Assembly (NCBI GenBank): GCA_018303405.1
Contig: JAGVYD010000005.1
Coordinates: 1-47,387, forward strand
Origin: Candidatus Woesearchaeota archaeon
GTDB taxonomy: Archaea; Nanobdellota; Nanobdellia; Woesearchaeales; JABMPP01
DNA: 47,387 bases
Reading direction: 5' to 3'
The notes beneath the pieces were generated by a model. The model was not told where the DNA came from and made no database searches. It worked only from the letters and a program-made list of their open reading frames with translations. Below are positions 29,398-38,761 of the stretch, in pieces. The position numbers were made by a program, and so were the translations under genes. How positions within the stretch are numbered: position 1 is the stretch's first letter; each line of letters opens with the position of its first letter.

Positions 29398-29465
29398 TTT
29401 GCCCATTCACCACAACTAGTAGGGGAATTAACCACACATTAGTATAAATATTTTTCGGTGCTTTA

Positions 29466-29683
29466 GCTTAGCAGAAAACTTCGCCTGAAGGCTCAGGTTT
29501 TGCCATCGGCTCGCATGGGCATCTTATTCACGAGAGCAGTTTTCTCCCTGGAACTTAACGATTTTTGGAATCGCTTAAGTGCCGAACGAGCAGAGCGAGT
29601 GACCGCACTCCGAAAACTGCTGTCTGCCTTATTTCCAGATGCTCGCAGAATTGATGGCAAAACGTAAACTTTTCTGCTAAGCA
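29466..29683 (-). mobile_element. Structured hairpin element, copy 1, with 9-bp flanking repeats
   Basis: The 308-base gene-free gap holds a folded element. Its ends pair over 13 bp (GCTTAGCAGAAAA, 29466-29478, with 29670-29682). Further helices are GTTTTGCCATC/GATGGCAAAAC (29497-29507 with 29653-29663) and AGCAGTTTTC/GAAAACTGCT (29535-29544 with 29612-29621), plus inner hairpins. GGTGCTTTA flanks it directly at 29457-29465 and 29684-29692, like a target-site duplication. Read on the minus strand it aligns with the element at 37796-37961: shared unpaired blocks, such as CATCAATTyTGCGA, and helices that differ by compensating changes. No protein is encoded. Strand is set by that alignment. Confidence 0.6.
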
Positions 29684-29706
29684 GGTGCTTTATTAACGGA
29701 ACGAGC

Positions 29707-29952
29707 CTAGAATCCCCCACTCATAAGCTGCTGGACTTTTTTTTCAGCCTGGATTTTGTCCGGAAACTGGTGGTTGCAGATTTCCCTGGCATTGCTGTCA
29801 CGGCCGTGCCTGGCTATGACGGACCAGCCCTTATCTTGCCTGGCAATCTCAACTGACTTGTCGTAGTAATGCGGGTCGTCATCAGTTTTGTGCACATAGA
29901 TGTGCTCATCTTCATCCTGGTCCAGCTGGTGCCATTGCTCCGGAAGCTTCAT
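29707..29952 (-). CDS. Small hypothetical protein
   Basis: This 81-residue hydrophilic protein, rich in His, Asp and Lys (for example QDEDEHIYVHKTDDDPHYYDKS), has no membrane span and no recognised family. Its start overlaps the end of the upstream leftward gene by 41 bases, which suggests a translationally coupled pair. The region GWSVIARHGRD is the most ordered-looking part. Confidence 0.6.
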   Translation of the reverse strand: MKLPEQWHQLDQDEDEHIYVHKTDDDPHYYDKSVEIARQDKGWSVIARHGRDSNAREICNHQFPDKIQAEKKVQQLMSGGF

Positions 29953-30721
29953 AATTCTGAGAAACCATGTGAGGTTTATAATTCTTTTGGGGCCCGTATT
30001 CCAGCACTTGAACCCCTATGTCATTGCCAGTTGGATGAGTGGAAACGAACAGCAAATGGCTGTTATCATACAACAGTTGCCAGCCTAATCCGCCTCTTAC
30101 CATCTTAGGGGTGATATGACGGCGCTGCTCGTCCGGAATTATTTTAATATCTTCATCCTTGAGCTGATTAACGCCTCCGTCCCTGGTTGAAAAAAATAGG
30201 AGATGGTAATCCGGATAAACCAGATGGCTTACAGAAGCATATACCCGCCGGGATGCATCCCCTCCATTGCCGTGCCGAAAATTATTTTGGATAGCCTCCT
30301 CAAACTTACGATTGGTTGTATCAGCAATAATGTCATCAAAGCCCCAGCTCATCATTTGGGCATACAATTCCTGCCTGGCTTCAGACATGTTTCCCATAAA
30401 AGTATTTCTCAGGACTGTGTGAGGGATTATTGAATATATTGGCGCAAGGCTGCCGGGAAAATCAGGGCTGTTGACTGCCTCATTTATTTTTTCCTTGTCA
30501 GGCGCGCTTAAATCCTGGCCGGATTCTTTTGCCCACTGAACTGCATTTTTCATAAGGTTTTTTCGAAAATAGCTTCTTTCAGGCAGTGTTCTCCAATAAC
30601 TGTCCGTGTGTATGGCCGGGCCAGGAAGAAAAACAAGTTCCGGAGTGACTTTTAGCAGGATATTGTCTGTAGATTGGATGGACTGGAGCAGATGTTCAAG
30701 ATTGCCGCCTTGAGAATCCAT
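29912..30721 (-). CDS. Hypothetical protein, unknown family
   Basis: About 269 residues with no membrane segment. Two similar stretches, YPDYHLLFFSTRDGGVNQLKDEDIKIIPDEQRRH and NSHLLFVSTHPTGNDIGVQVLEYGPQ, hint at a repeated beta element. No catalytic motif is recognised. The frame opens further upstream with TTG at 30760 and ATG at 30745. The TATA-like CATTTATAATG at about 30741-30753 puts the transcription start near the ATG at 30721, so that leaderless start is preferred. It overlaps the small downstream gene. Confidence 0.65.
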   Translation of the reverse strand: MDSQGGNLEHLLQSIQSTDNILLKVTPELVFLPGPAIHTDSYWRTLPERSYFRKNLMKNAVQWAKESGQDLSAPDKEKINEAVNSPDFPGSLAPIYSIIPHTVLRNTFMGNMSEARQELYAQMMSWGFDDIIADTTNRKFEEAIQNNFRHGNGGDASRRVYASVSHLVYPDYHLLFFSTRDGGVNQLKDEDIKIIPDEQRRHITPKMVRGGLGWQLLYDNSHLLFVSTHPTGNDIGVQVLEYGPQKNYKPHMVSQNYEASGAMAPAGPG

Positions 30722-30772
30722 TCCGTAACTATAGTTATTAAACATTATAAATGTTTGCAAAAGCTCGAGGGG

Positions 30773-31537
30773 TCACTTCAGGTCATTGTAATTCCTGAAA
30801 AACTCGTCTGTTTTTTTGCGTGCAGAAAAAATATGGCGCCGTGTTCCCTGGACCCCGACTGCGAATTTGTCCGCGTTCCTTTCCTCTTCATCGATTTCCC
30901 TGCCAAAGCTTGCGAATTTGGACAGTGGCGACAATATCCTGAGGAAAAAGCTTGAAATCTTCAGGGAAGGGGTATTGTCCTTCAGGTGGCTCAATTCATG
31001 CAACAGCACTGCCTCAATCTCCTTCCTGCCCAGCAGGTCTATCATGCCCACAGAAATGAATATGCTCTTTCTAAAATGTGAAAATGACATTGCCAAAGGC
31101 TTTGCCGTCTTTAGCAGGTAAAGCTTGACTTCCTTCAGGCCGTAGCTGACTGCATTCTGCTCGACAAAGTCTGAAAGATAACTGCCCTGCAATTGCTTTG
31201 ACTTTTTCTTAAAGCTCTGATAGATTACCAAAGGTGAGACAAGCATTGCAGCAATGAGCGCAGATAGCAAAGCCAGGGCTGTAATGTACATGATTGCCTG
31301 GAATCGATGGCATGAGCTGAAAAGCATCCTGCACCCGGTTGAATATACAAAGTATAGCACCGGAAACACAAGGGCAAAAACATGCATGTATGCCAGCATA
31401 AGCTTATGACTGTTGGATGCTTTTTTGTTGAACTTCATAATCAGGAAAAAAAGCAGCGATGCCATGACAGACGCCAAAGTAACATAAAAATTGGAAGGAT
31501 TGTAGAAAAAAACCTCGAGGTCAAAGAGCAAGCCCAT
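30773..31537 (-). CDS. Membrane M48/M56-like metallopeptidase, BlaI partner
   Basis: About four N-terminal membrane spans are followed by a zinc-peptidase domain with HELSHLKDN (His180, His184 in this numbering), the HExxH motif. A conserved Asn/Asp lies after it, and a further span-like region follows near LKISSFFLRILSPL. Order and location directly behind a blaI-type gene (TGA, one base, ATG) match the BlaR1/MecR1 arrangement, in which a membrane peptidase relieves the repressor. There is no penicillin-binding sensor domain, so the signal is not a beta-lactam via that route. It could equally be an HtpX-like M48 enzyme. The start at 31537 is set by this spacing. Confidence 0.83.
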   Translation of the reverse strand: MGLLFDLEVFFYNPSNFYVTLASVMASLLFFLIMKFNKKASNSHKLMLAYMHVFALVFPVLYFVYSTGCRMLFSSCHRFQAIMYITALALLSALIAAMLVSPLVIYQSFKKKSKQLQGSYLSDFVEQNAVSYGLKEVKLYLLKTAKPLAMSFSHFRKSIFISVGMIDLLGRKEIEAVLLHELSHLKDNTPSLKISSFFLRILSPLSKFASFGREIDEEERNADKFAVGVQGTRRHIFSARKKTDEFFRNYNDLK

Positions 31538-31538
31538 T

Positions 31539-31907
31539 TCAGCCTCCCCTTCTTTTTGAGAATCTATCGTTGAAGTAGCTGACTGCTGTCGGCCCGAATT
31601 TGTCAATAAGGCTGTCCACTGCCTTTTCTATCACTGAAACCTCGAACTGCGCCTCGTTTTGCTTTGGAAAATAAAGGTACCTTATCCCTCCCCTGCCCGT
31701 CTCAACTTTCCTGTCTACAACGCCTTTCTCGTGCAGCCTGTCAAGGATCACAGCAATGCTGCTCAATGCGACTTTTCTTTTCGGCCCAAGAATTGAATAG
31801 ATCTCCCTAACCTTCATGGTCTTGTTCGGCCATATCACGCAAAGTACATCGCGTTCCAATGGTGAAAGTATTGATTCATATTGTGAATTTGCCTTGAGTT
31901 TCTTCAT
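31539..31907 (-). CDS. BlaI/MecI/CopY-family transcriptional repressor
   Basis: The 122-residue protein has the BlaI layout: LSPLERDVLCVIWPNKTMKVREIYSIL, then the recognition helix region KVALSSIAVILDRLHEKGVVDRK, the wing GRGGIRYLYFP, and a C-terminal dimer helix. These repressors bind TACA...TGTA inverted repeats as dimers. Its own promoter carries TTTACAAGCCTTGTAAA, and four further operons in the window carry the same type of site, so it is the best candidate to control them. It is co-transcribed with the membrane peptidase downstream, which may cleave it or signal to it. Confidence 0.88.
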   Translation of the reverse strand: MKKLKANSQYESILSPLERDVLCVIWPNKTMKVREIYSILGPKRKVALSSIAVILDRLHEKGVVDRKVETGRGGIRYLYFPKQNEAQFEVSVIEKAVDSLIDKFGPTAVSYFNDRFSKRRGG

Positions 31908-31951
31908 GATAAATCCCCTATTGAGGGCATCTTTATATATTTTACGTTTTT

Positions 31952-31980
31952 TTTACAAGCCTTGTAAAGCTTTAAATATA
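31952..31980 (-). promoter_or_regulatory. TTTACA-N5-TGTAAA operator, site B (blaI autoregulation)
   Basis: TTTACAAGCCTTGTAAA at 31952-31968 (a perfect palindrome around the central C) follows, on the minus strand, the TATA-like TATATTTAAAG (31970-31980). Transcription from it would start near 31950, within or beside the site, leaving a leader of about 43 bases before blaI. A second TATA-like ATATATAAAG (about 31931-31940) could give a leaderless blaI transcript. Confidence 0.68.
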
Positions 31981-32070
31981 AGGCTTTGATGAGAGTGATT
32001 ATTGACTGAAACTCCGCACAGCTTAATAATGATTCATTGATTAATCCCTTATGGACAGGTTAAGGATAAC

Positions 32071-32112
32071 ATTTATATAGTACGCATGGCATTGTTTTAC
32101 AGAAGTTGTAAA
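32071..32112 (+). promoter_or_regulatory. TTTACA-N5-TGTAAA operator, site C (tlpA-ccdA)
   Basis: The TATA box ATTTATATAG (32071-32080) is followed by TTTACAGAAGTTGTAAA at 32096-32112, which overlaps the expected start point. It precedes the ATG of the TlpA-like lipoprotein by about 10 bases. The sequence after the site, GGTTAGG, resembles that after sites A and D. Confidence 0.68.
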
Positions 32113-32122
32113 GGTTAGGCAA

Positions 32123-32734
32123 ATGATGGCACTAAAGCTGCATGGGAAAAAGAAATCAATGGTTTATGCTATTGCAATAGCCGGCGCAATAATGATGCTG
32201 ATAATCCTGCAGGGCTGTGCCAGGCAGGGCAATGCTGATGCTGAAAAATCAAACCAGGCTGCCCTGGCAAGGCTGGATGCATTGCAGGAAAGGCTCATAG
32301 GCGCAAAGACGCTTGACCACATAGATGCGCCGGAATTCAGCTTGACCGGGATCAATGGAGAAAAAGTTACAAAACAAAGCCTGTTGGGGAGCCCATATAT
32401 TTTGCAGGGCTTTGCAAGCTGGTGCGCCACATGCATTGAAGAAGCCAAGAAGATGAGGCAAGTTTACAGCGAGTATTCGGATAATGGCCTGAAAATTGTG
32501 TATGTGAGTGTCTGGGACGGGGAAACGAATGAAACCATAACAGAATTCAAGAATAGGGTCAGCGGGCCTGATGACTGGAGCTGGCATGTTGACACTGACC
32601 AGGTTGCGCTTAAATTTGAAATGATTTCAACTTCTTCGACCATAATTATTGACAGGGAAGGCAAAATGGTTTACAGGGATGATGATGAAAGCAGGCTTGA
32701 CAGGATAATTGCCGAAGTGCAGGATGTCGTTTAA
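32123..32734 (+). CDS. TlpA-like thioredoxin lipoprotein
   Basis: A signal peptide ends in the lipobox ILQGC (Cys32), so the protein should be lipid-anchored outside the membrane. A short helical linker leads to a TlpA/peroxiredoxin-like thioredoxin fold: APEFSLTGINGEKV, the active site SWCATC (Cys101, Cys104), VYVSVWDGE and the cis-Pro-equivalent region STSSTIIIDREGKMVY. The usual Pro before the strand is replaced by Ser/Thr, which may alter redox behaviour. It would take electrons from the CcdA encoded next and reduce exported targets. ATG occurs twice at the start (32123 and 32126). Confidence 0.9.
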   Translation: MMALKLHGKKKSMVYAIAIAGAIMMLIILQGCARQGNADAEKSNQAALARLDALQERLIGAKTLDHIDAPEFSLTGINGEKVTKQSLLGSPYILQGFASWCATCIEEAKKMRQVYSEYSDNGLKIVYVSVWDGETNETITEFKNRVSGPDDWSWHVDTDQVALKFEMISTSSTIIIDREGKMVYRDDDESRLDRIIAEVQDVV

Positions 32735-32795
32735 CCGGTTTTTCGAGAGGGGCATCATAATAATTTCATTGATTATATGATTACAGGGGAATAAA

Positions 32796-33524
32796 ATGGC
32801 TGACTACGCTTTAGGGGGGCTGGCATTTTCTGCTGGCCTGATCGCATTTCTCAATCCTTGCGGCATAGCCATGCTTCCTGCCTATGTCTCTTATTACATT
32901 GAGAAGAAGGAAAGGGAAAATGAAAGCAAGGCCATTAGGGTTTTGAGAGGGCTTTTGCTCGGAACTGTTGTCAGCGCAGGCTTTCTTTTTGTGTTTGGGC
33001 TAACTGGACTGGCAGTGGCTTTTTTAGGCTCGGGCTTTGTCAGCTTCGCCCCTCTTCTTACATTGATAATGGGATTTGTCCTCGCCGGCCTAGGTGCTTA
33101 CCTGCTTGCAGGAAAGGAAATTTCAATCCTGCCAGGGCTCAACCGAATAGGAGGCAGGCTGCAATCCACAAAAAATTCAAATGAATACCTTGCATTCTTT
33201 CTTTATGGGATAGGATATGCCATTGCCTCAATCAGCTGCACGATTCCGATTTTCCTGTATATTGTCACGGCTGCCTTGACGCTTAATGGGATTGTGCAGG
33301 GCCTGGGCGTTTTCCTGCTCTATGGCGCGGGCATGGGCATATTTATGCTCGCTGTTTCAGTGGCAACGGCCATATCCAAGGAGTTGATGATAGGCTACTT
33401 AAAAAAACACATGCCACTGATAAGGAAGCTAAGCGCAATTGTCGTATTATTGGCAGGAATGTATATTATATATTATGAAGTGTGGATTGCCAGAGTGCTT
33501 GAATTGTATTTTGCCTGGAAATAA
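32796..33524 (+). CDS. CcdA/DsbD-type membrane electron transporter
   Basis: Six membrane spans in 242 residues. The two redox cysteines lie in the family positions: LIAFLNPCGIAMLPAY in the first span and AIASISCTIPIFLY in the fourth, each followed by the helix-breaking proline. The protein passes electrons from cytosolic thioredoxin to extracytoplasmic thiol proteins, here presumably the TlpA-like lipoprotein 61 bases upstream. The second motif is ISCTIP rather than TPC, a variant seen in divergent CcdA proteins. A canonical second CcdA is encoded at 41888. Confidence 0.9.
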   Translation: MADYALGGLAFSAGLIAFLNPCGIAMLPAYVSYYIEKKERENESKAIRVLRGLLLGTVVSAGFLFVFGLTGLAVAFLGSGFVSFAPLLTLIMGFVLAGLGAYLLAGKEISILPGLNRIGGRLQSTKNSNEYLAFFLYGIGYAIASISCTIPIFLYIVTAALTLNGIVQGLGVFLLYGAGMGIFMLAVSVATAISKELMIGYLKKHMPLIRKLSAIVVLLAGMYIIYYEVWIARVLELYFAWK

Positions 33525-33532
33525 TGGAAAAC

Positions 33533-33565
33533 TTTATATATAGGTAGTTTTACAAGCTTTGTAAA
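33533..33565 (+). promoter_or_regulatory. TTTACA-N5-TGTAAA operator, site D (Cys-protein operon)
   Basis: The TATA box TTTATATATAGG (33533-33544) is followed by TTTACAAGCTTTGTAAA at 33549-33565, covering the predicted start. It is nearly identical to site B and shares TGTAAAGGTT with sites A and C. It heads the run of envelope Cys and thioredoxin proteins that starts at 33630. Confidence 0.68.
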
Positions 33566-33629
33566 GGTTGGGTGTTTCGACAGCATCATATCATGTTGTC
33601 AAAAAATTGACTTGGAGGCGGATGGCAGG

Positions 33630-34358
33630 ATGGATAAGAGTGAAACAGTGACAATTTTTCTGATCATAGTCGTGACAGCAGTTGTACTTTTCAACCAGTA
33701 CCAGATTTTCTCAGTGAATAACATGATTTCAGGCAAATCAACGGGAGTGGGAGTGTCATTTTTTAACTCTGGCGGGTCATCTGATATTGCAGATGTCAAT
33801 GTCCTGGAATCCAAGTCAACGGCCCAGTCAATCTCATTGCTGTTCCCAGTGGAACAGATTGCTACAGTCGATGACGCAATTGCAGTAATGCTGCCGGCCG
33901 GGACTCCTGAGTATGGCGATGCAATGGGCGTAAGCTTTGATGACCCTGTTGGCTCACTGACAAAACTGCAAAGGGCTTTTCCAGGGCTTCAGAAGGAAAT
34001 GAAGGAAAACCATCCAGAAGCATGGCAGAGGTATCTTAACCTGGCCACAAAGCCGGTTGGGATTTCATGCGAATATTGCTGCGGAGTTGGGCCAATCGGG
34101 ATTAATCCGGATGGAAGCTCAAGATGCGGATGCAGCCACAATCCGGCTGTGCATTCTGTGACAATGTGGCTTATGATGAATACTGAGTACACTGATGCTG
34201 AAGTTTTGCGGGAAGTGCTTAAGTGGAAAACTGCATGGTTCCCGAAAAATATGGTGACATTGGCCTACCAGGTTGCGACCCAGGGCGCGCCAACAGCAGG
34301 AGATGCAGGAGGGGCCTCTGGCCTTGACCAGCTTGGCAACATGGTAGGGGGTTGCTGA
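33630..34358 (+). CDS. Membrane-anchored Cys-rich protein ending in MVGGC
   Basis: One N-terminal span (about residues 8-23) is followed by an extracytoplasmic region of about 215 residues. The core has GISCEYCCGVGP... SRCGCSHNPAVHSVTMW, with five closely spaced cysteines and two histidines, resembling a metal or redox site, then a helical segment (EVLREVLKWKTAWFPKNMVTLAYQ). A flexible Gly/Ala linker leads to the terminal GLDQLGNMVGGC. The same MVGGC ending occurs in the next gene. I recognise no characterised family. The ATG at 33630 was chosen over TTG at 33612; it is the first gene after operator D. Confidence 0.8.
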   Translation: MDKSETVTIFLIIVVTAVVLFNQYQIFSVNNMISGKSTGVGVSFFNSGGSSDIADVNVLESKSTAQSISLLFPVEQIATVDDAIAVMLPAGTPEYGDAMGVSFDDPVGSLTKLQRAFPGLQKEMKENHPEAWQRYLNLATKPVGISCEYCCGVGPIGINPDGSSRCGCSHNPAVHSVTMWLMMNTEYTDAEVLREVLKWKTAWFPKNMVTLAYQVATQGAPTAGDAGGASGLDQLGNMVGGC

Positions 34359-34433
34359 TAATATTGTGAATTTTACGGCAAACCTGCTTGAAAATCAATA
34401 AACCCAATAAAAAGAAAAATATGGAGGGAAAAA

Positions 34434-34664
34434 ATGGAAAACAACACAATTTTGATCATTGTGGTTTCAGTGCTTGTTGTAATTGCCGCAGTGCAGGCAG
34501 TTGAGCTTGGAGTGCTGAAGAGCAAGATAGAATCAGGCAGCTTCAGGGCCAGCGGATCAGCATCCACAAGCGTTAATGCCCCGGCCGGCGGGCCTTCTGG
34601 TGGAGCAGTTGGCAGCGGTGCACCGAGCCTGGACAGCCTTAGCGGAATGGTCGGCGGCTGCTAG
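34434..34664 (+). CDS. Small membrane-anchored protein ending in MVGGC
   Basis: This 76-residue protein consists of one N-terminal span (ILIIVVSVLVVIAAVQAV), a short linker helix, a Ser/Gly/Ala/Pro-rich unstructured arm and the terminal SLDSLSGMVGGC. That ending matches GLDQLGNMVGGC of the upstream protein, while the rest is unrelated, so the short C-terminal segment itself seems to be the functional part. The only cysteine is the last residue. GGAGGG lies just before the ATG. Confidence 0.8.
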   Translation: MENNTILIIVVSVLVVIAAVQAVELGVLKSKIESGSFRASGSASTSVNAPAGGPSGGAVGSGAPSLDSLSGMVGGC

Positions 34665-34777
34665 AAAGTTTTTTACATAGTTTTTTATATTTGCATGGAT
34701 TTCGCTGATTGCATAACAGGAAATTTGCTTACACGGGCAAAAGAATCCAAAGCACTTTTTGGATAGGGGTGGAAGAA

Positions 34778-34981
34778 ATGAACAAAAAAATGTTTATTGT
34801 TGTGATGGCAGTATTGATTGTTGGGACATTGATGATTTCCGGCTGTGCCAGCTCAAGCGACTCTTATGATTATAGGGGGAGCGAGGGAGCAGCGCCTGTT
34901 GGCGGCGGATGCGGAGTAAGCCTTCCGGCAGACAGTGTGGGGGCAGCGAGCCAGCCAGCAGCAAGCCAAGATTCTTTCTAG
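34778..34981 (+). CDS. Small lipoprotein with GGGCG segment
   Basis: This 67-residue protein has a signal peptide and lipobox LMISGC, so the mature protein is a lipid-anchored arm of about 45 residues rich in Ser, Ala and Gly. One further cysteine sits in APVGGGCGVSL, recalling the GGC tails of the two genes upstream. No folded domain is expected. The frame opens upstream at 34709, but the ATG at 34778 gives the canonical signal peptide. T-tracts and a TATA-like stretch at about 34668-34690 may mean a partial terminator and an internal promoter ahead of it. Confidence 0.75.
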   Translation: MNKKMFIVVMAVLIVGTLMISGCASSSDSYDYRGSEGAAPVGGGCGVSLPADSVGAASQPAASQDSF

Positions 34982-35023
34982 CTGAAGCCAGGATTATCAG
35001 AATACAATGGGTGAAGGCCTGAG

Positions 35024-35464
35024 ATGGGAAAGCAGTTCGTGAGCAAGAAAGTCGAAGAGGAGCGAAAGGAAGCTCAGGAAAGAAGGGTTAAGATTGATGA
35101 GGATATCAATGCCACAAAGAAAACAAAAAGGGGCAAGCGCCTGAGCATGATGTGGATTCTGCTGATAATTTTAATTGCCGGCACTGCTTTTGGCGCATAT
35201 TTGCACTACAAGCCCGGGAGATATGACTCATTTGCGAAATGCCTTACAGAAAAAGGGGTTATTATGTACGGTGCAGACTGGTGCCAGTATACAGCTGCGC
35301 AAAGAGGAATGTTCGGCAAGTCGTTCAAATATATAACATACAAGAATTATGATGCAAGGGATGACATCAAGATTACCCCGACATGGGAAGTTGATGGCCA
35401 ACTTTATGAGAGAGTGTTGGCATTTGACAGGCTTGCGGGCTTGTCAGGGTGCACCTTAAATTAA
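35024..35464 (+). CDS. Thioredoxin-like membrane protein with altered active site CQYT
   Basis: A charged cytoplasmic N-terminus (residues 1-40) and one span (42-60) precede a short thioredoxin-like domain: YDSFAKCLTEKGVIMYGADWCQYTAAQRGMFGKSF, KITPTWEVDGQLYERV and LAGLSGCTLN. Proteins of this type usually read WCPHC here. Here the second cysteine is threonine (Cys87-x-x-Thr90), leaving a single-thiol site. Cys73 and Cys143 might substitute. It therefore may act as a thiol transferase or binding protein rather than a dithiol oxidase. It sits in the operator D operon just before the triple-thioredoxin gene. Confidence 0.85.
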   Translation: MGKQFVSKKVEEERKEAQERRVKIDEDINATKKTKRGKRLSMMWILLIILIAGTAFGAYLHYKPGRYDSFAKCLTEKGVIMYGADWCQYTAAQRGMFGKSFKYITYKNYDARDDIKITPTWEVDGQLYERVLAFDRLAGLSGCTLN

Positions 35465-35480
35465 GAGGAGAGGGATATCA

Positions 35481-36911
35481 ATGGCTAAGAATGAAGATAT
35501 GATTCCGGAAGAGATGGATGACATGGAGCAAATGGACACTGCCGATGCAGCAGAAGACAGCCGGGCAGATTCAGATGAGGCACAGGATAATGATGCAGGC
35601 AGCAATAAGCAGCAGGCAAGCAAGGGAAAAAAACAGAAGCCTGGCAATGCCCATAAGGCAAAGCATGCCCTGAGCCACAAGAAAGCTGAGAAAAAAACCA
35701 CAGCAAAACACAGGCCCAAGCACGCAGGCAAGGCGCATGTTGAAAAAAAGGCAGCGAAGCCTGGCAAAGATTCATTAAAAGTGTGGCTTTTTGTGATCCT
35801 TGGAGTAGTCCTCGTTGTTAATGTAGCGCTGTTATACCAGATTTTGAAAGTGGCCGGCGAAAAGGAAAAGCAGGCAACAGAAGCCCAGGTCTTGCCAAAG
35901 CTGGAAATGGTGTCGCTTGTTGATTCAACCTGCGAGATGTGCTTCTCACTGAATGAGGCGGAAAGCGGCATTGTCAGGTCCAACTACAATATCACAGGCA
36001 AGAGGGTTGTGGAATACTCTTCAGCCGAAGGCAAGGAACTCATTGCAAAATATGGGATACAGAAGATTCCAACAATTGTTCTGACAGGCGAAACAGATAA
36101 AGTGACAATTGCGGGGTTTGGGGTTTCTTCTGATGGGATGGTGTTTGCCGGAACAGCGGCACCCTACGTCAATGCAGCAGATGGCCAGGTCAAGGGACTG
36201 GTGACTGTAACCTACTTAAGGCCAGGCAACTGCGCAGAATGCAGCGACCTGAATGACCTCATTTCACAACTGAGCGCATCCGGGATACAGATTGCAGACA
36301 AGAAGGAAATTGAAGTTGCGGGGAATGTTGGCAGGATGCTTGTTGACAAATATGCCATAACAATGGCGCCGACCCTCATCCTGTCGCCGGAACTTGCAGA
36401 ATACCCAGATGCAATTGGAAGCTGGTCGCTGATAGGAACAGTTGAGGAGGACGGCAATTATGTCATCCGAAACGCACAGGCAATTGGCATCCCCTATTAT
36501 GATATAACAACCAACACGCTTGGCGGCTTGCTCGATGTTACTTATATTGTCGACAAATCATGCGACGCGTGCTACAATGTCAGCATACACAGGGCAATCC
36601 TGCTGAGGTTCGGGGCCGAGTTTGGCAGCGAGACAACTGTTGATGTGTCAGACCCTGAGGGCAAGGCATTGATTGAAAAATACTCAATTACCAAGGTGCC
36701 TGCCATTGTGATGTCAGGCGATGCTGCGGCATATAGCGGCTTGGTCGAGGCATGGAGGCCTGTTGGAAGCGTAGAAGAGGATGGCACATTTGTCTTCAGG
36801 AACCCGCAGGTAATGACCGGGTCGATTTACAAGGACCTGGAAGTGGGCCAGGTGCTCGGCCAGGCCGAGACGGATGCTGCCACAGAAAACACAGCAGGCG
36901 CGACTGAATAG
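35481..36911 (+). CDS. Membrane protein with three tandem thioredoxin-like CxxC domains
   Basis: An acidic then very Lys/His/Ala-rich cytoplasmic tail (1-97) leads to one span (100-122) and three extracytoplasmic thioredoxin-like domains. Their active sites are CEMC (151-154), CAEC (251-254) and CDAC (361-364). The first and third are followed by a cis-Pro-like YGIQKIPTIVLTGE or YSITKVPAIVMSGD, and the second by YAITMAPTLILSPE. All three pairs are intact, unlike the preceding gene. It could store or pass electrons along a chain of sites or act as a disulfide isomerase. A T-rich stretch follows the stop. Confidence 0.85.
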   Translation: MAKNEDMIPEEMDDMEQMDTADAAEDSRADSDEAQDNDAGSNKQQASKGKKQKPGNAHKAKHALSHKKAEKKTTAKHRPKHAGKAHVEKKAAKPGKDSLKVWLFVILGVVLVVNVALLYQILKVAGEKEKQATEAQVLPKLEMVSLVDSTCEMCFSLNEAESGIVRSNYNITGKRVVEYSSAEGKELIAKYGIQKIPTIVLTGETDKVTIAGFGVSSDGMVFAGTAAPYVNAADGQVKGLVTVTYLRPGNCAECSDLNDLISQLSASGIQIADKKEIEVAGNVGRMLVDKYAITMAPTLILSPELAEYPDAIGSWSLIGTVEEDGNYVIRNAQAIGIPYYDITTNTLGGLLDVTYIVDKSCDACYNVSIHRAILLRFGAEFGSETTVDVSDPEGKALIEKYSITKVPAIVMSGDAAAYSGLVEAWRPVGSVEEDGTFVFRNPQVMTGSIYKDLEVGQVLGQAETDAATENTAGATE

Positions 36912-36950
36912 GCCGCGATTTTTTATTTCTATTTTTTTATTGCTGAAATC
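36912..36950 (+). terminator. Poly-T terminator after triple-thioredoxin gene
   Basis: Directly after the stop the sequence is GATTTTTTATTTCTATTTTTTTATTG, i.e. several T-tracts, the usual signal for archaeal transcription termination. It probably ends most transcripts of the operator D operon. Confidence 0.5.
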
Positions 36951-36984
36951 ATGATTTTTGACAAAAACTACTGGCAGAGCGGGC

Positions 36985-37767
36985 ATGGCATTGAATAGGG
37001 CATCAAAAAAATGGAAAGCATCCTTGATGAGGAGTACGCTGCAAAATATTGTCTCACAGCCTAGAAACCTGCTGCTGGCATTTTTGTTTGACCTTGCGTT
37101 TGTCTTTATAGCCTATATCCTGAGATTCACAATTCTGGACATGCTGGCTTCAACAATGCCAGTCGCGGCGGGCTGGGCGGCTGCGCTGCACCTTTTGGCC
37201 ATAATAATTTTTTACAGTGCAATCAAGTTCATTGTGCTGGTGCTTATCAGCGAATACAGCCAAAAAAAGCAAAGGCAGGACTACAGCAGGATCATGCCTT
37301 TCATCATACTGAATGCAGCGCTTGGCTTAATCCTTACAATTCTGCTCCTGATGCCTATCCTGGTTAACCTTATTCCTGTGTCCCAGGGATTGGCCATTTT
37401 TATCTATTGGGCGTATATGGCAACTGCATTGGCATTTTTTTATTTGTGGCTGAACCTTTCACATTCGTTTTTCATAATTGGCAATGGCGCCTTCGGGAGC
37501 CTGGGAAAAGGCCTGAAATTTACGCTCACGCAGTTCAGAAAGCATTCAGGAGTGGCTGGATTATTTGTGTCCGCGGCATTGGTGATAGCAGTGTTGGTGC
37601 TGCTCATGGACTTGGGGCTGCGGCTGGCGCTCAATGCAGAGACAATTAACATCTCCTATCCAAGAATTGCCATGTGGCTGACTTATGCCACCCTGTTTAT
37701 TTTCTATTTATTGCACGCTTTTTGCAGGGCTTACTTTTTGGACATTTGCCTAAAAAGCAAAGCATGA
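36985..37767 (+). CDS. Polytopic membrane protein, unknown
   Basis: About six hydrophobic helices in 260 residues with a basic N-terminus (ALNRASKKWKAS). Segments such as LLLAFLFDLAFVFIAYILRF and LFIFYLLHAFCRAYFLDICL are typical of uncharacterised archaeal membrane proteins. No transporter or enzyme motif is recognised. The ATG at 36985 is preferred to an upstream TTG at 36958. A T-rich terminator separates it from the thioredoxin operon, so it may be transcribed on its own or by read-through. Confidence 0.75.
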   Translation: MALNRASKKWKASLMRSTLQNIVSQPRNLLLAFLFDLAFVFIAYILRFTILDMLASTMPVAAGWAAALHLLAIIIFYSAIKFIVLVLISEYSQKKQRQDYSRIMPFIILNAALGLILTILLLMPILVNLIPVSQGLAIFIYWAYMATALAFFYLWLNLSHSFFIIGNGAFGSLGKGLKFTLTQFRKHSGVAGLFVSAALVIAVLVLLMDLGLRLALNAETINISYPRIAMWLTYATLFIFYLLHAFCRAYFLDICLKSKA

Positions 37768-37795
37768 GTTTTGCCTGTTGAAGACCTGAGAATAG

Positions 37796-37961
37796 TGGCC
37801 TTGCCCGAAACGTGAGTTTGGGCATCAATTTTGCGAAGCCCATTCCCGGAGGGGTTATGCATTTTTCGGGGTTGCAGAGGAGAAAAATGCAATTCGCGAG
37901 AAGATGCAAAGCTGAGCAGATGCCCAAACCGAGCCGGAAGGCGAGTTTTCGGACAAGGCCA
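37796..37961 (+). mobile_element. Structured hairpin element, copy 2, with 7-bp flanking repeats
   Basis: The gap before lgt holds a folded 166-base element. The ends pair as TGGCCTTG/CAAGGCCA (37796-37803 with 37954-37961), continued by CCGAAA/TTTCGG. Inner helices are GTTTGGGCATC/GATGCCCAAAC (37816-37826 with 37919-37929) and TGCATTTTTC/GAAAAATGCA (37858-37867 with 37882-37891), plus GCC-GGAA-GGC. AGAATAG abuts it on both sides (37789-37795, 37962-37968). It aligns with the minus strand of 29466-29683: the same unpaired blocks (CATCAATTTTGCGA; AAGATGC; ACC-GAGCC; AGGCGA; GTTTTC) and helices that covary. It ends just before the lgt TATA-like box. Confidence 0.6.
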
Positions 37962-38005
37962 AGAATAGGCAAACATTAAAATATGCATGAGAGGTTATTG
38001 GTGCC

Positions 38006-38761
38006 ATGTTCGAACACAATATTAATCCGGTGCTTGTAAGCTGGGGATTTTTGGAAATAAGGTATTATGGGATTATCTATGCCCTTGGGTTTGTATTTGC
38101 ATTGTGGTACCTTTTGCAGAGGAGCAGGCAGGGCAAGCTTTCACTCACTGAGGAAGAGATTTATGATTTCATGGTTTACCTTGTAGTCGGCGTTGTTTTG
38201 GGCGCGAGGCTTTTTGAGGTTGCATTTTACCATCCTGATTATTACTTTTTGAACCCTGGTCAGATTTTTGCTGTTTGGAATGGCGGCCTGTCATTTCACG
38301 GCGGATTTGTTGGCGGCGTGTTTGCATTGGTGCTGTTTCTCAGGAAAAGAAAGCATGATTTTTACGAAGTGGCGGATGCATTGATGGTCCCTTTGGCATT
38401 GGGTTTGGCCTTTGGGCGCCTGGCAAATTTCATCAATGGCGAGCTGTACGGCAGGGTAACAACAATGCCATGGGGGGTAAAGTTCCCGGGCGCAGATGGG
38501 TTCAGGCACCCCACACAAATCTATGAAAGCCTGAAAAATTTCCTGATATTCGGCACTTTGTTTTCAATCAGGGACAGGAAATTCAAGAAAGGCTTTTTGT
38601 TCTGGGGCTTCATCACATTGTATGGCATATTGAGGCTTGTCATTGAATTTTGGAAGGAGCCGGAAACAATTTTCCTTGGAATTCCCATGGGCCAGCTGAT
38701 GAGCGGGATTATGATTTTAACAGGAGGGTATGTGCTTTATAGCAAATATTTAAAAAAATAG
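38006..38761 (+). CDS. lgt: Prolipoprotein diacylglyceryl transferase
   Basis: About seven spans in 251 residues with all signature blocks: IRYYGIIYALGF, GGLSFHGGFVGGV, GLAFGRLANFINGELYGRVT (the Lgt signature with its essential Arg), FRHPTQIYES and the final GQLMSG. The enzyme moves diacylglycerol from a phospholipid to the lipobox cysteine of prolipoproteins. With lspA in the same window it completes the first two steps of bacterial-type lipoprotein making, in a genome that must handle archaeal ether lipids, so the donor lipid is an open question. A TATA-like TTAAAATATG about 25 bases upstream suggests a leaderless start. Confidence 0.96.
   Translation: MFEHNINPVLVSWGFLEIRYYGIIYALGFVFALWYLLQRSRQGKLSLTEEEIYDFMVYLVVGVVLGARLFEVAFYHPDYYFLNPGQIFAVWNGGLSFHGGFVGGVFALVLFLRKRKHDFYEVADALMVPLALGLAFGRLANFINGELYGRVTTMPWGVKFPGADGFRHPTQIYESLKNFLIFGTLFSIRDRKFKKGFLFWGFITLYGILRLVIEFWKEPETIFLGIPMGQLMSGIMILTGGYVLYSKYLKK

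Follow-up and report, generated by a model that had tools for sequence, protein, structure and literature searches.

A large family of short folded mobile DNA elements beside presumed promoters in Woesearchaeota

In this work, we focus on two structured elements, termed here A and B, carried by a stretch of DNA of 47,387 nucleotides from Candidatus Woesearchaeota archaeon (positions 1 to 47,387 of contig JAGVYD010000005.1, assembly GCA_018303405.1), the whole of which will be called the window. Both belong to one large, previously undescribed family of mobile DNA elements of about 164 bases. We favor, with a rough probability of 0.6, the view that these are non-autonomous DNA elements whose ends and interior make up one conserved fold, and that they are mobilized in trans by a DDE-type transposase directed to promoters.

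Two elements of one mobile family

A preliminary description of the window had reported two elements with common unpaired blocks and compensating helices, and both are present where it placed them. The ends that it gave hold for element A (29466-29683, minus strand), and those of element B are refined from 37796-37961 to 37797-37960 on the plus strand; the bounds set by cmsearch are 29465-29683 and 37797-37960. Regarding the abutting direct repeats, the first is exact over 9 bp, and the second, noted as AGAATAG, is a 9-bp pair with 7 matches. Element A reads TGCTTAGCAGAAAA...TTTTCTGCTAAGC on the minus strand and element B reads GGCCTTGCCCGAAA...TTTTCGGACAAGGCC on the plus strand. The single-strand folding of the two elements beats that of dinucleotide shuffles (z = -6.0 and -6.5, with 0/200 shuffles as good). 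Their positions in the window are the following:

29466..29683, minus strand: element A, 218 bp, a long form in subfamily A whose inner loop holds an additional hairpin block of about 54 bases
29457..29465: target duplication of element A, copy 1, GGTGCTTTA
29684..29692: target duplication of element A, copy 2, GGTGCTTTA
37797..37960, plus strand: element B, subfamily B, 164 bp
37788..37796: target duplication of element B, copy 1, GAGAATAGT, matching copy 2 at 7/9 positions
37961..37969: target duplication of element B, copy 2, AAGAATAGG

The host genome (G000; 1,605,204 bp in 23 contigs, 95% complete) contains about ten relatives of element A and about 27 of element B. Subfamily A comprises five near-identical long copies (95-98%) and five short ones (about 163 bp) that do not have the extra block, and about 25 other full copies of element B are found at 89-95% identity. 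When those copies serve as queries, additional subfamilies surface that differ in their ends and stems. A covariance model built from 24 representatives of this genome gives 66 matches at E<=0.05, which amount to about 57 real elements once opposite-strand duplicates and fragments are removed, so that the search for more copies proposed in the preliminary description was fruitful, here as in other Woesearchaeota genomes. The elements start with GGC and end with GCC, and their length ranges from 137 to 308 bp, being mostly 156-167 with a peak at 162-166. None of them contains a gene-sized open reading frame (ORF), and all are well within the size of miniature inverted-repeat transposable elements (MITEs; less than about 600 bp, no ORF). 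The long forms (218-219, 305 and 308 bp) carry additional hairpins inside a variable core. Examples of these palindromic core blocks are GACAGGGGGATGTCCCTTACGGGGATGTC and GTCACTCG..CTCGTTCG. Some blocks recur in elements from more than one genome, as though the core had been gaining and losing hairpins. Long forms with extra core palindromes are found at these positions:

G000 C14:112135-112442
G000 C20:44098-44355
G000 C9:265218-265522
G000 C10:33633-33850
Window 29466-29683 (element A)

The mobility of the family is supported by several observations. A target duplication of 8-9 bp flanks 37/54 of the host-genome copies and 56/95 of the copies in relatives. These duplications are not due to chance because left flanks paired with right flanks taken from other copies give 1 and 0, respectively. 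Two orthologous sites are occupied in one genome and empty in a congener: G269 has an element between GGATATGCC repeats at a place where G195 continues straight into CCCAACATTTATATA, and a second site is occupied in G201 and empty in G210, the intergenic alignment of the latter being loose. A third congener pair (G301/G299) is not clean. The earlier proposal that direct repeats imply insertion is therefore borne out by family-wide duplications, many copies and two empty sites in congeners, which also answers the comparison of occupied and empty sites that it had called for. In G159, nine left ends share the same terminal sequence. Seven of them were read: their visible 5' parts are identical and each runs off a contig end, the picture that a recent burst would be expected to leave. 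The partial covariance-model matches of this genome were considered as a longer autonomous element and rejected, as they are the 5' parts of these near-identical copies at contig ends. In the host genome, at C3:32240-32600 (minus strand), a nested insertion is seen, in which a subfamily A element follows immediately upon the 3' half of a subfamily B element that is truncated, and which gives the order of the two insertion events.

The family is present in 16/59 relatives and in 45/371 genomes of a phylum sample, and the positive genomes listed all belong to one order, in which they are spread over many families. The highest copy number is that of G052, with 73 matches. A strict DNA pattern searched among named genomes returned only Candidatus Woesearchaeota. 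A very close element (148 bits) lies at L137:164-326 (JACOZO010000134.1) in the Woesearchaeota metagenome-assembled genome NC_groundwater_207_Ag_S-0.1um_44_9, which is a candidate near relative. No Rfam family matches the elements above its gathering score, the only match being a chance-level one to sR46 (18 bits for a cut-off of 50), and no match to the elements was found in phage, plasmid and viral-contig collections. The preliminary description had spoken of a "new structured RNA or hairpin-DNA mobile element": its mobility, its absence from Rfam and its DPANN host are borne out.

A fold kept by covariation

The fold can be followed on element B, where its parts are located as follows, all on the plus strand:

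37797..37811: P1, 5' strand (terminal inverted repeat), pairs with 37946-37960
37946..37960: P1, 3' strand
37816..37826: P2, 5' strand GTTTGGGCATC, pairs with 37919-37929; 100% of host-genome cells paired
37919..37929: P2, 3' strand GATGCCCAAAC
37827..37836: conserved joining segment AATTTTGCGA, which with 37914-37918 (GAGCA) makes G-C and Y-R pairs and a GA/GA step under P4
37837-37839 with 37911-37913: P4, followed by the variable core, within 37837..37913
37859-37867 with 37882-37890: inner hairpin P5, conserved apical loop GGGGTTGCAGAGGA
37930..37945: side hairpin P3, CGA-GCC-GGAA-GGC-GAG, whose stem covaries GCC/GGC with GGC/GCC

Throughout the family, the terminal stem P1, which is a terminal inverted repeat (TIR), has 14-15 bp with 94-95% of its cells paired, and about 4 bases separate it from P2. 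The latter has 9-12 bp of quite diverse sequence, as in GTTTTGCCATC/GATGGCAAAAC, GTTTGGGCATC/GATGCCCAAAC, GTTTTGGCACC/GGTGCCAAAAC and GTTTTGCTGCC/GGCAGCAAAAC. It is followed by a joining segment AANTNTGYGA opposite GARC, then by P4, and GA faces GA at the P4 entry in 50/57 host-genome rows and 93/108 rows from other genomes. The core hairpin P5 has an apical loop that resembles GG.G.TTGCA.AGGAG, and the side hairpin P3, on the 3' side between P2 and P1, often has the same CGA...GAG frame.

Among the 24 host-genome representatives, 90.1% of the pair cells are standard and 29/43 pairs have changed on both sides. Their covariation score is 0.448 vs 0.175 +/- 0.011 in shuffled alignments (0/500), and slid partners reach at most 0.17. 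For 108 distinct sequences from other genomes, the figures are 92.0% standard cells, double-sided changes in 42/43 pairs and a score of 0.568 vs 0.153 +/- 0.005 (slid partners <=0.077), bearing in mind that this alignment was fitted to the covariance model and leans towards the structure. When run without a given structure, RNAalifold recovers P1, P2 and P4, and it proposes two further pairs, G38-C130 and Y39-R129. Stems that change freely but stay matched, next to unpaired or non-Watson-Crick positions that do not change, are the mark of selection on a folded strand, and the covariation that had been read as selection on the fold is thus statistically confirmed in both sets.

The P2-core structure also recurs in elements whose outer ends are quite unlike those above, namely TATGTATTAGGC...GCCTAATACATA and GTACGTATTAAG...CTTAATACATAC (L224-L226 of G056 and L227 of G119); the G056 elements, with outer ends TATGTATTAGGC, also have a longer side hairpin. 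Judging by these sequences, it looks as though outer ends had been exchanged around one core, and as though the element consisted of that core instead of the TIR.

A fixed distance to presumed promoters

The target site was analyzed in 97 copies with clear duplications, whose flanks were read outward from the duplication. A-A occupies positions 3-4 and TTTAWAWA positions 7-14, a consensus that reads as a promoter made of a B recognition element (BRE) and a TATA box. In 56/97 copies (taking the better side), exactly 6 bp separate the duplication from the TATA 8-mer, and in 11 more the offset is 7; it is flat in controls located 150-600 bp away, and a strong TATA is found in 81% of the copies vs 10% of the controls. 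By side, the offset of 6 is seen 30 times on the left and 44 times on the right, and the orientation of the element matters little. Its spacing to the site of a TBP-containing complex is thus fixed, and the elements appear, from the flanking sequence, to sit immediately upstream of the presumed TFB/TBP footprint. In the host genome, 16/42 cases have a distance of 43-49 bp between element edge and start codon, measured on the TATA side, as for leaderless genes, which would place the duplication at about -45 to -37, the BRE at -36 to -31 and the TATA box at -30 to -23. Within the window, this distance is 46 bp for element B and 59-60 bp for element A, and the neighboring promoter features are these:

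29451-29456, minus strand: BRE-like stretch (part of 29443..29456) of the minus-strand gene starting at 29406
29443-29450, minus strand: TATA box TATTTATA of the same gene, beginning 6 bp beyond the duplication of element A
37970-37975, plus strand: BRE-like CAAACA (part of 37970..37983) of the lgt-like gene starting at 38006
37976-37983, plus strand: TATA box TTAAAATA of the same lgt-like gene

Substantial ORFs are never interrupted in the host genome, the five apparent cases being ORFs of at most 136 codons that are probably spurious. Insertion downstream of the TATA box was considered and rejected, as the promoters face away from the element. The sharpness of the offset, to a single base, argues for targeting, since purifying selection alone should permit any site further upstream.

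In three genomes (L123 of G016, L184 of G024 and L257 of G107), elements of the family adjoin or lie a few bases apart, with adjacent GGCTCTGT-like ends, which suggests that the same promoter site was used repeatedly. The host genome also carries another dispersed repeat of about 260-310 bp, unrelated by sequence, in up to six copies and without a convincing ORF (C14:70193-70461, C14:73924-74180 and C15:77907-78216).

Mobilization, alternatives and significance

Ends that are precise and symmetric, flanked by a duplication of 8-9 bp, are what DDE transposases typically produce, and TFB is the archaeal homologue of TFIIB/Brf. We propose that a DDE-type transposase acting in trans would cut at the paired ends and join them to a target with a 9-bp stagger. 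The TFB/TBP/BRE-TATA complex would guide this enzyme to promoters, or the enzyme would itself read the BRE-TATA sequence, and insertion beside promoters would offer a safe harbor in a gene-dense genome. The fold would probably be extruded as hairpin or cruciform DNA, which we propose because the neighboring promoters face away from the element, and it would be part of what the machinery recognizes, which would explain why changes in the stems come in pairs whereas the joining segments (TGYGA / GARC, GA/GA steps) do not vary. We lean towards such a DNA substrate, and this is the least certain step of the proposal.

Several points weigh against this trans-mobilization, and the main one concerns the enzyme. 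PF01609 (IS4/IS5), PF00872 (IS256), PF12762 (IS1595) and PF01610 (ISL3) are absent from the host genome and G052, the last two also from G159, and PF13610 (IS6) is absent from the host genome, the sole genome tested for it. An origin from these families is not supported, no matching transposase being found in the high-copy hosts where each was tested. Neither the host genome nor the fetched loci of relatives contain an element of more than 330 bp bounded by a TIR and a duplication with matching ends, and the long pairs considered there as an autonomous partner were discarded as chance-level. The TIR pattern likewise reveals no autonomous insertion sequence (IS) sharing these ends in G159, G018 and G032, whose assemblies are incomplete, and no transposase could be recognized by eye among the basic ORFs listed for the host genome, a list made without a Pfam scan. 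As one genome was covered to about 95% and the others in fragments, the absence of the enzyme is not proof. Besides, promoter proximity could be partly the result of selection instead of targeting. Finally, G.T mismatches exceed A.C ones across subfamilies (41 vs 24 column types, tallied by hand), a mild hint at RNA selection; the excess in cell counts is inflated by the fixed G.T pairs of subfamily C and is hence discounted.

The preliminary description had held that covarying terminal arms fit poorly with a TIR-reading transposase. This argument is weaker than was stated: the ends keep GGC....(A)AAAT at both termini, they vary as matched pairs and they come with 8-9 bp duplications. A stronger argument against a plain MITE is that the internal fold is conserved, that the length hardly varies across the order and that promoters are targeted. 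One may even consider a new class of elements, in which a folded nucleic acid of fixed architecture, read by its shape and a few unpaired bases, would have no parent transposon and would integrate under TFB/TBP guidance across the order; we put this forward tentatively, as a possibility that we do not expect to prevail.

Prokaryotic MITEs have been reviewed (PMC10969869), and among them the Correia elements of Neisseria lie upstream of genes. The family resembles them in being short, ORF-less, intergenic, stem-loop forming and present at high copy number, with TIRs, short target duplications and empty orthologous sites. It differs from them by a multi-helix interior kept by covariation across an archaeal order at near-constant length, by a base-pair-fixed offset to BRE/TATA and by a parent IS that was not found. 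It could be that each subfamily is simply a deletion derivative of an IS, with arms matched by hairpin-templated repair and a promoter proximity that is merely tolerated in a gene-dense genome. The TIRs, the 8-9 bp duplications, the lack of an ORF and the high copy number fit such ordinary MITEs, and so do the recent B copies, in which G.T and A.C mismatches are about equal (20 vs 15), as expected for the neutral drift of single copies after insertion. However, independent deletion derivatives would not yield an interior (P2-P5, GA/GA steps, apical loop) of near-constant length throughout the order, and a correction of the arms would have removed the asymmetric joining segments as well, yet those are the most conserved. 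The exact 6-bp TATA offset is also sharper than tolerance would give, and the source IS did not come up in the searches made, so that we hold this explanation to be unlikely.

A mobile structured RNA seems to us quite improbable. Its transcript would fold, be reverse transcribed or otherwise copied, and be inserted in the manner of a short interspersed nuclear element or a ribozyme, the fold being selected as RNA. Strong covariation, GA/GA steps, GNRA-like P3 loops (GAAA, GGAA, GATA) and a mild G.T excess in P2 (28 vs 10 cells) would suit it, as would two reverse transcriptase fragments that share 82% DNA identity and lie at contig ends of the host genome (C2:59901-60503, minus strand, and C3:2-598, plus strand). 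However, we take these fragments to be reminiscent of the reverse transcriptases of diversity-generating retroelements, the ends of the elements are precise and symmetric, with neither a tail nor a 5' truncation bias, and the adjoining promoters face away, so that the element is not their transcript. As for a host regulatory or chromatin element kept upstream of promoters for gene control, with duplications arising by chance, the location about 46 bp upstream of start codons would agree with it, but the duplications, the identical recent copies, the patchy occurrence and the empty sites in congeners make it hardly credible.

Other systems share part of these properties with the trans-mobilized elements that we propose. 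Integron attC sites and IS200/IS605 ends are structure-read single-stranded DNA, recognized through the fold of one strand and a few fixed bases left unpaired in it; here as well, the sequence may vary while the fold and fixed unpaired bases are kept, whereas those systems recombine without 8-9 bp target duplications and do not target promoters. The IS6, IS5/IS4, IS256, ISL3 and IS1595 families have TIRs beginning with GG and 8-9 bp duplications, which makes their termini and duplication length similar, but their transposase genes are absent from the host genome and, where tested, from G052. In terms of target choice, the best-studied parallel is TRE5-A of Dictyostelium, a retrotransposon that integrates some 47 bp ahead of tRNA genes, on the upstream border of TFIIIB-covered DNA (PMC5391098), and the yeast retrotransposon Ty3 likewise targets Pol III promoters (PMC5911963). 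The element edge, about 46 bp upstream of start codons and just upstream of the presumed TFB/TBP footprint, is in a comparable place. Unlike these long protein-coding retroelements of eukaryotic Pol III genes, we deal here with a 164-bp non-coding DNA at general archaeal promoters. By analogy, the family can be described as having a MITE-like life style and a TRE5-A/Ty3-like choice of target. For the fold, the order-wide constant length, the exchange of ends and the base-pair-exact promoter offset, no counterpart was found in the open-licence papers searched. Nor do we know of one.

If the proposal is true, this would be, to our knowledge, the first archaeal mobile element that integrates at a fixed distance from a BRE/TATA core promoter. 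It would be a counterpart of the TBP-associated targeting of eukaryotes, and testable evidence that targeting through basal factors either reaches back to archaea or evolved twice. Covariation of this strength would be rare for an element that probably acts at the DNA level, which cautions against RNA discovery from covariation alone, and the family is a possible route to a new transposition enzyme. For Woesearchaeota themselves, the many promoter-adjacent insertions would supply regulatory variation, and they would point to the promoters and leaderless start sites of uncultured genomes.

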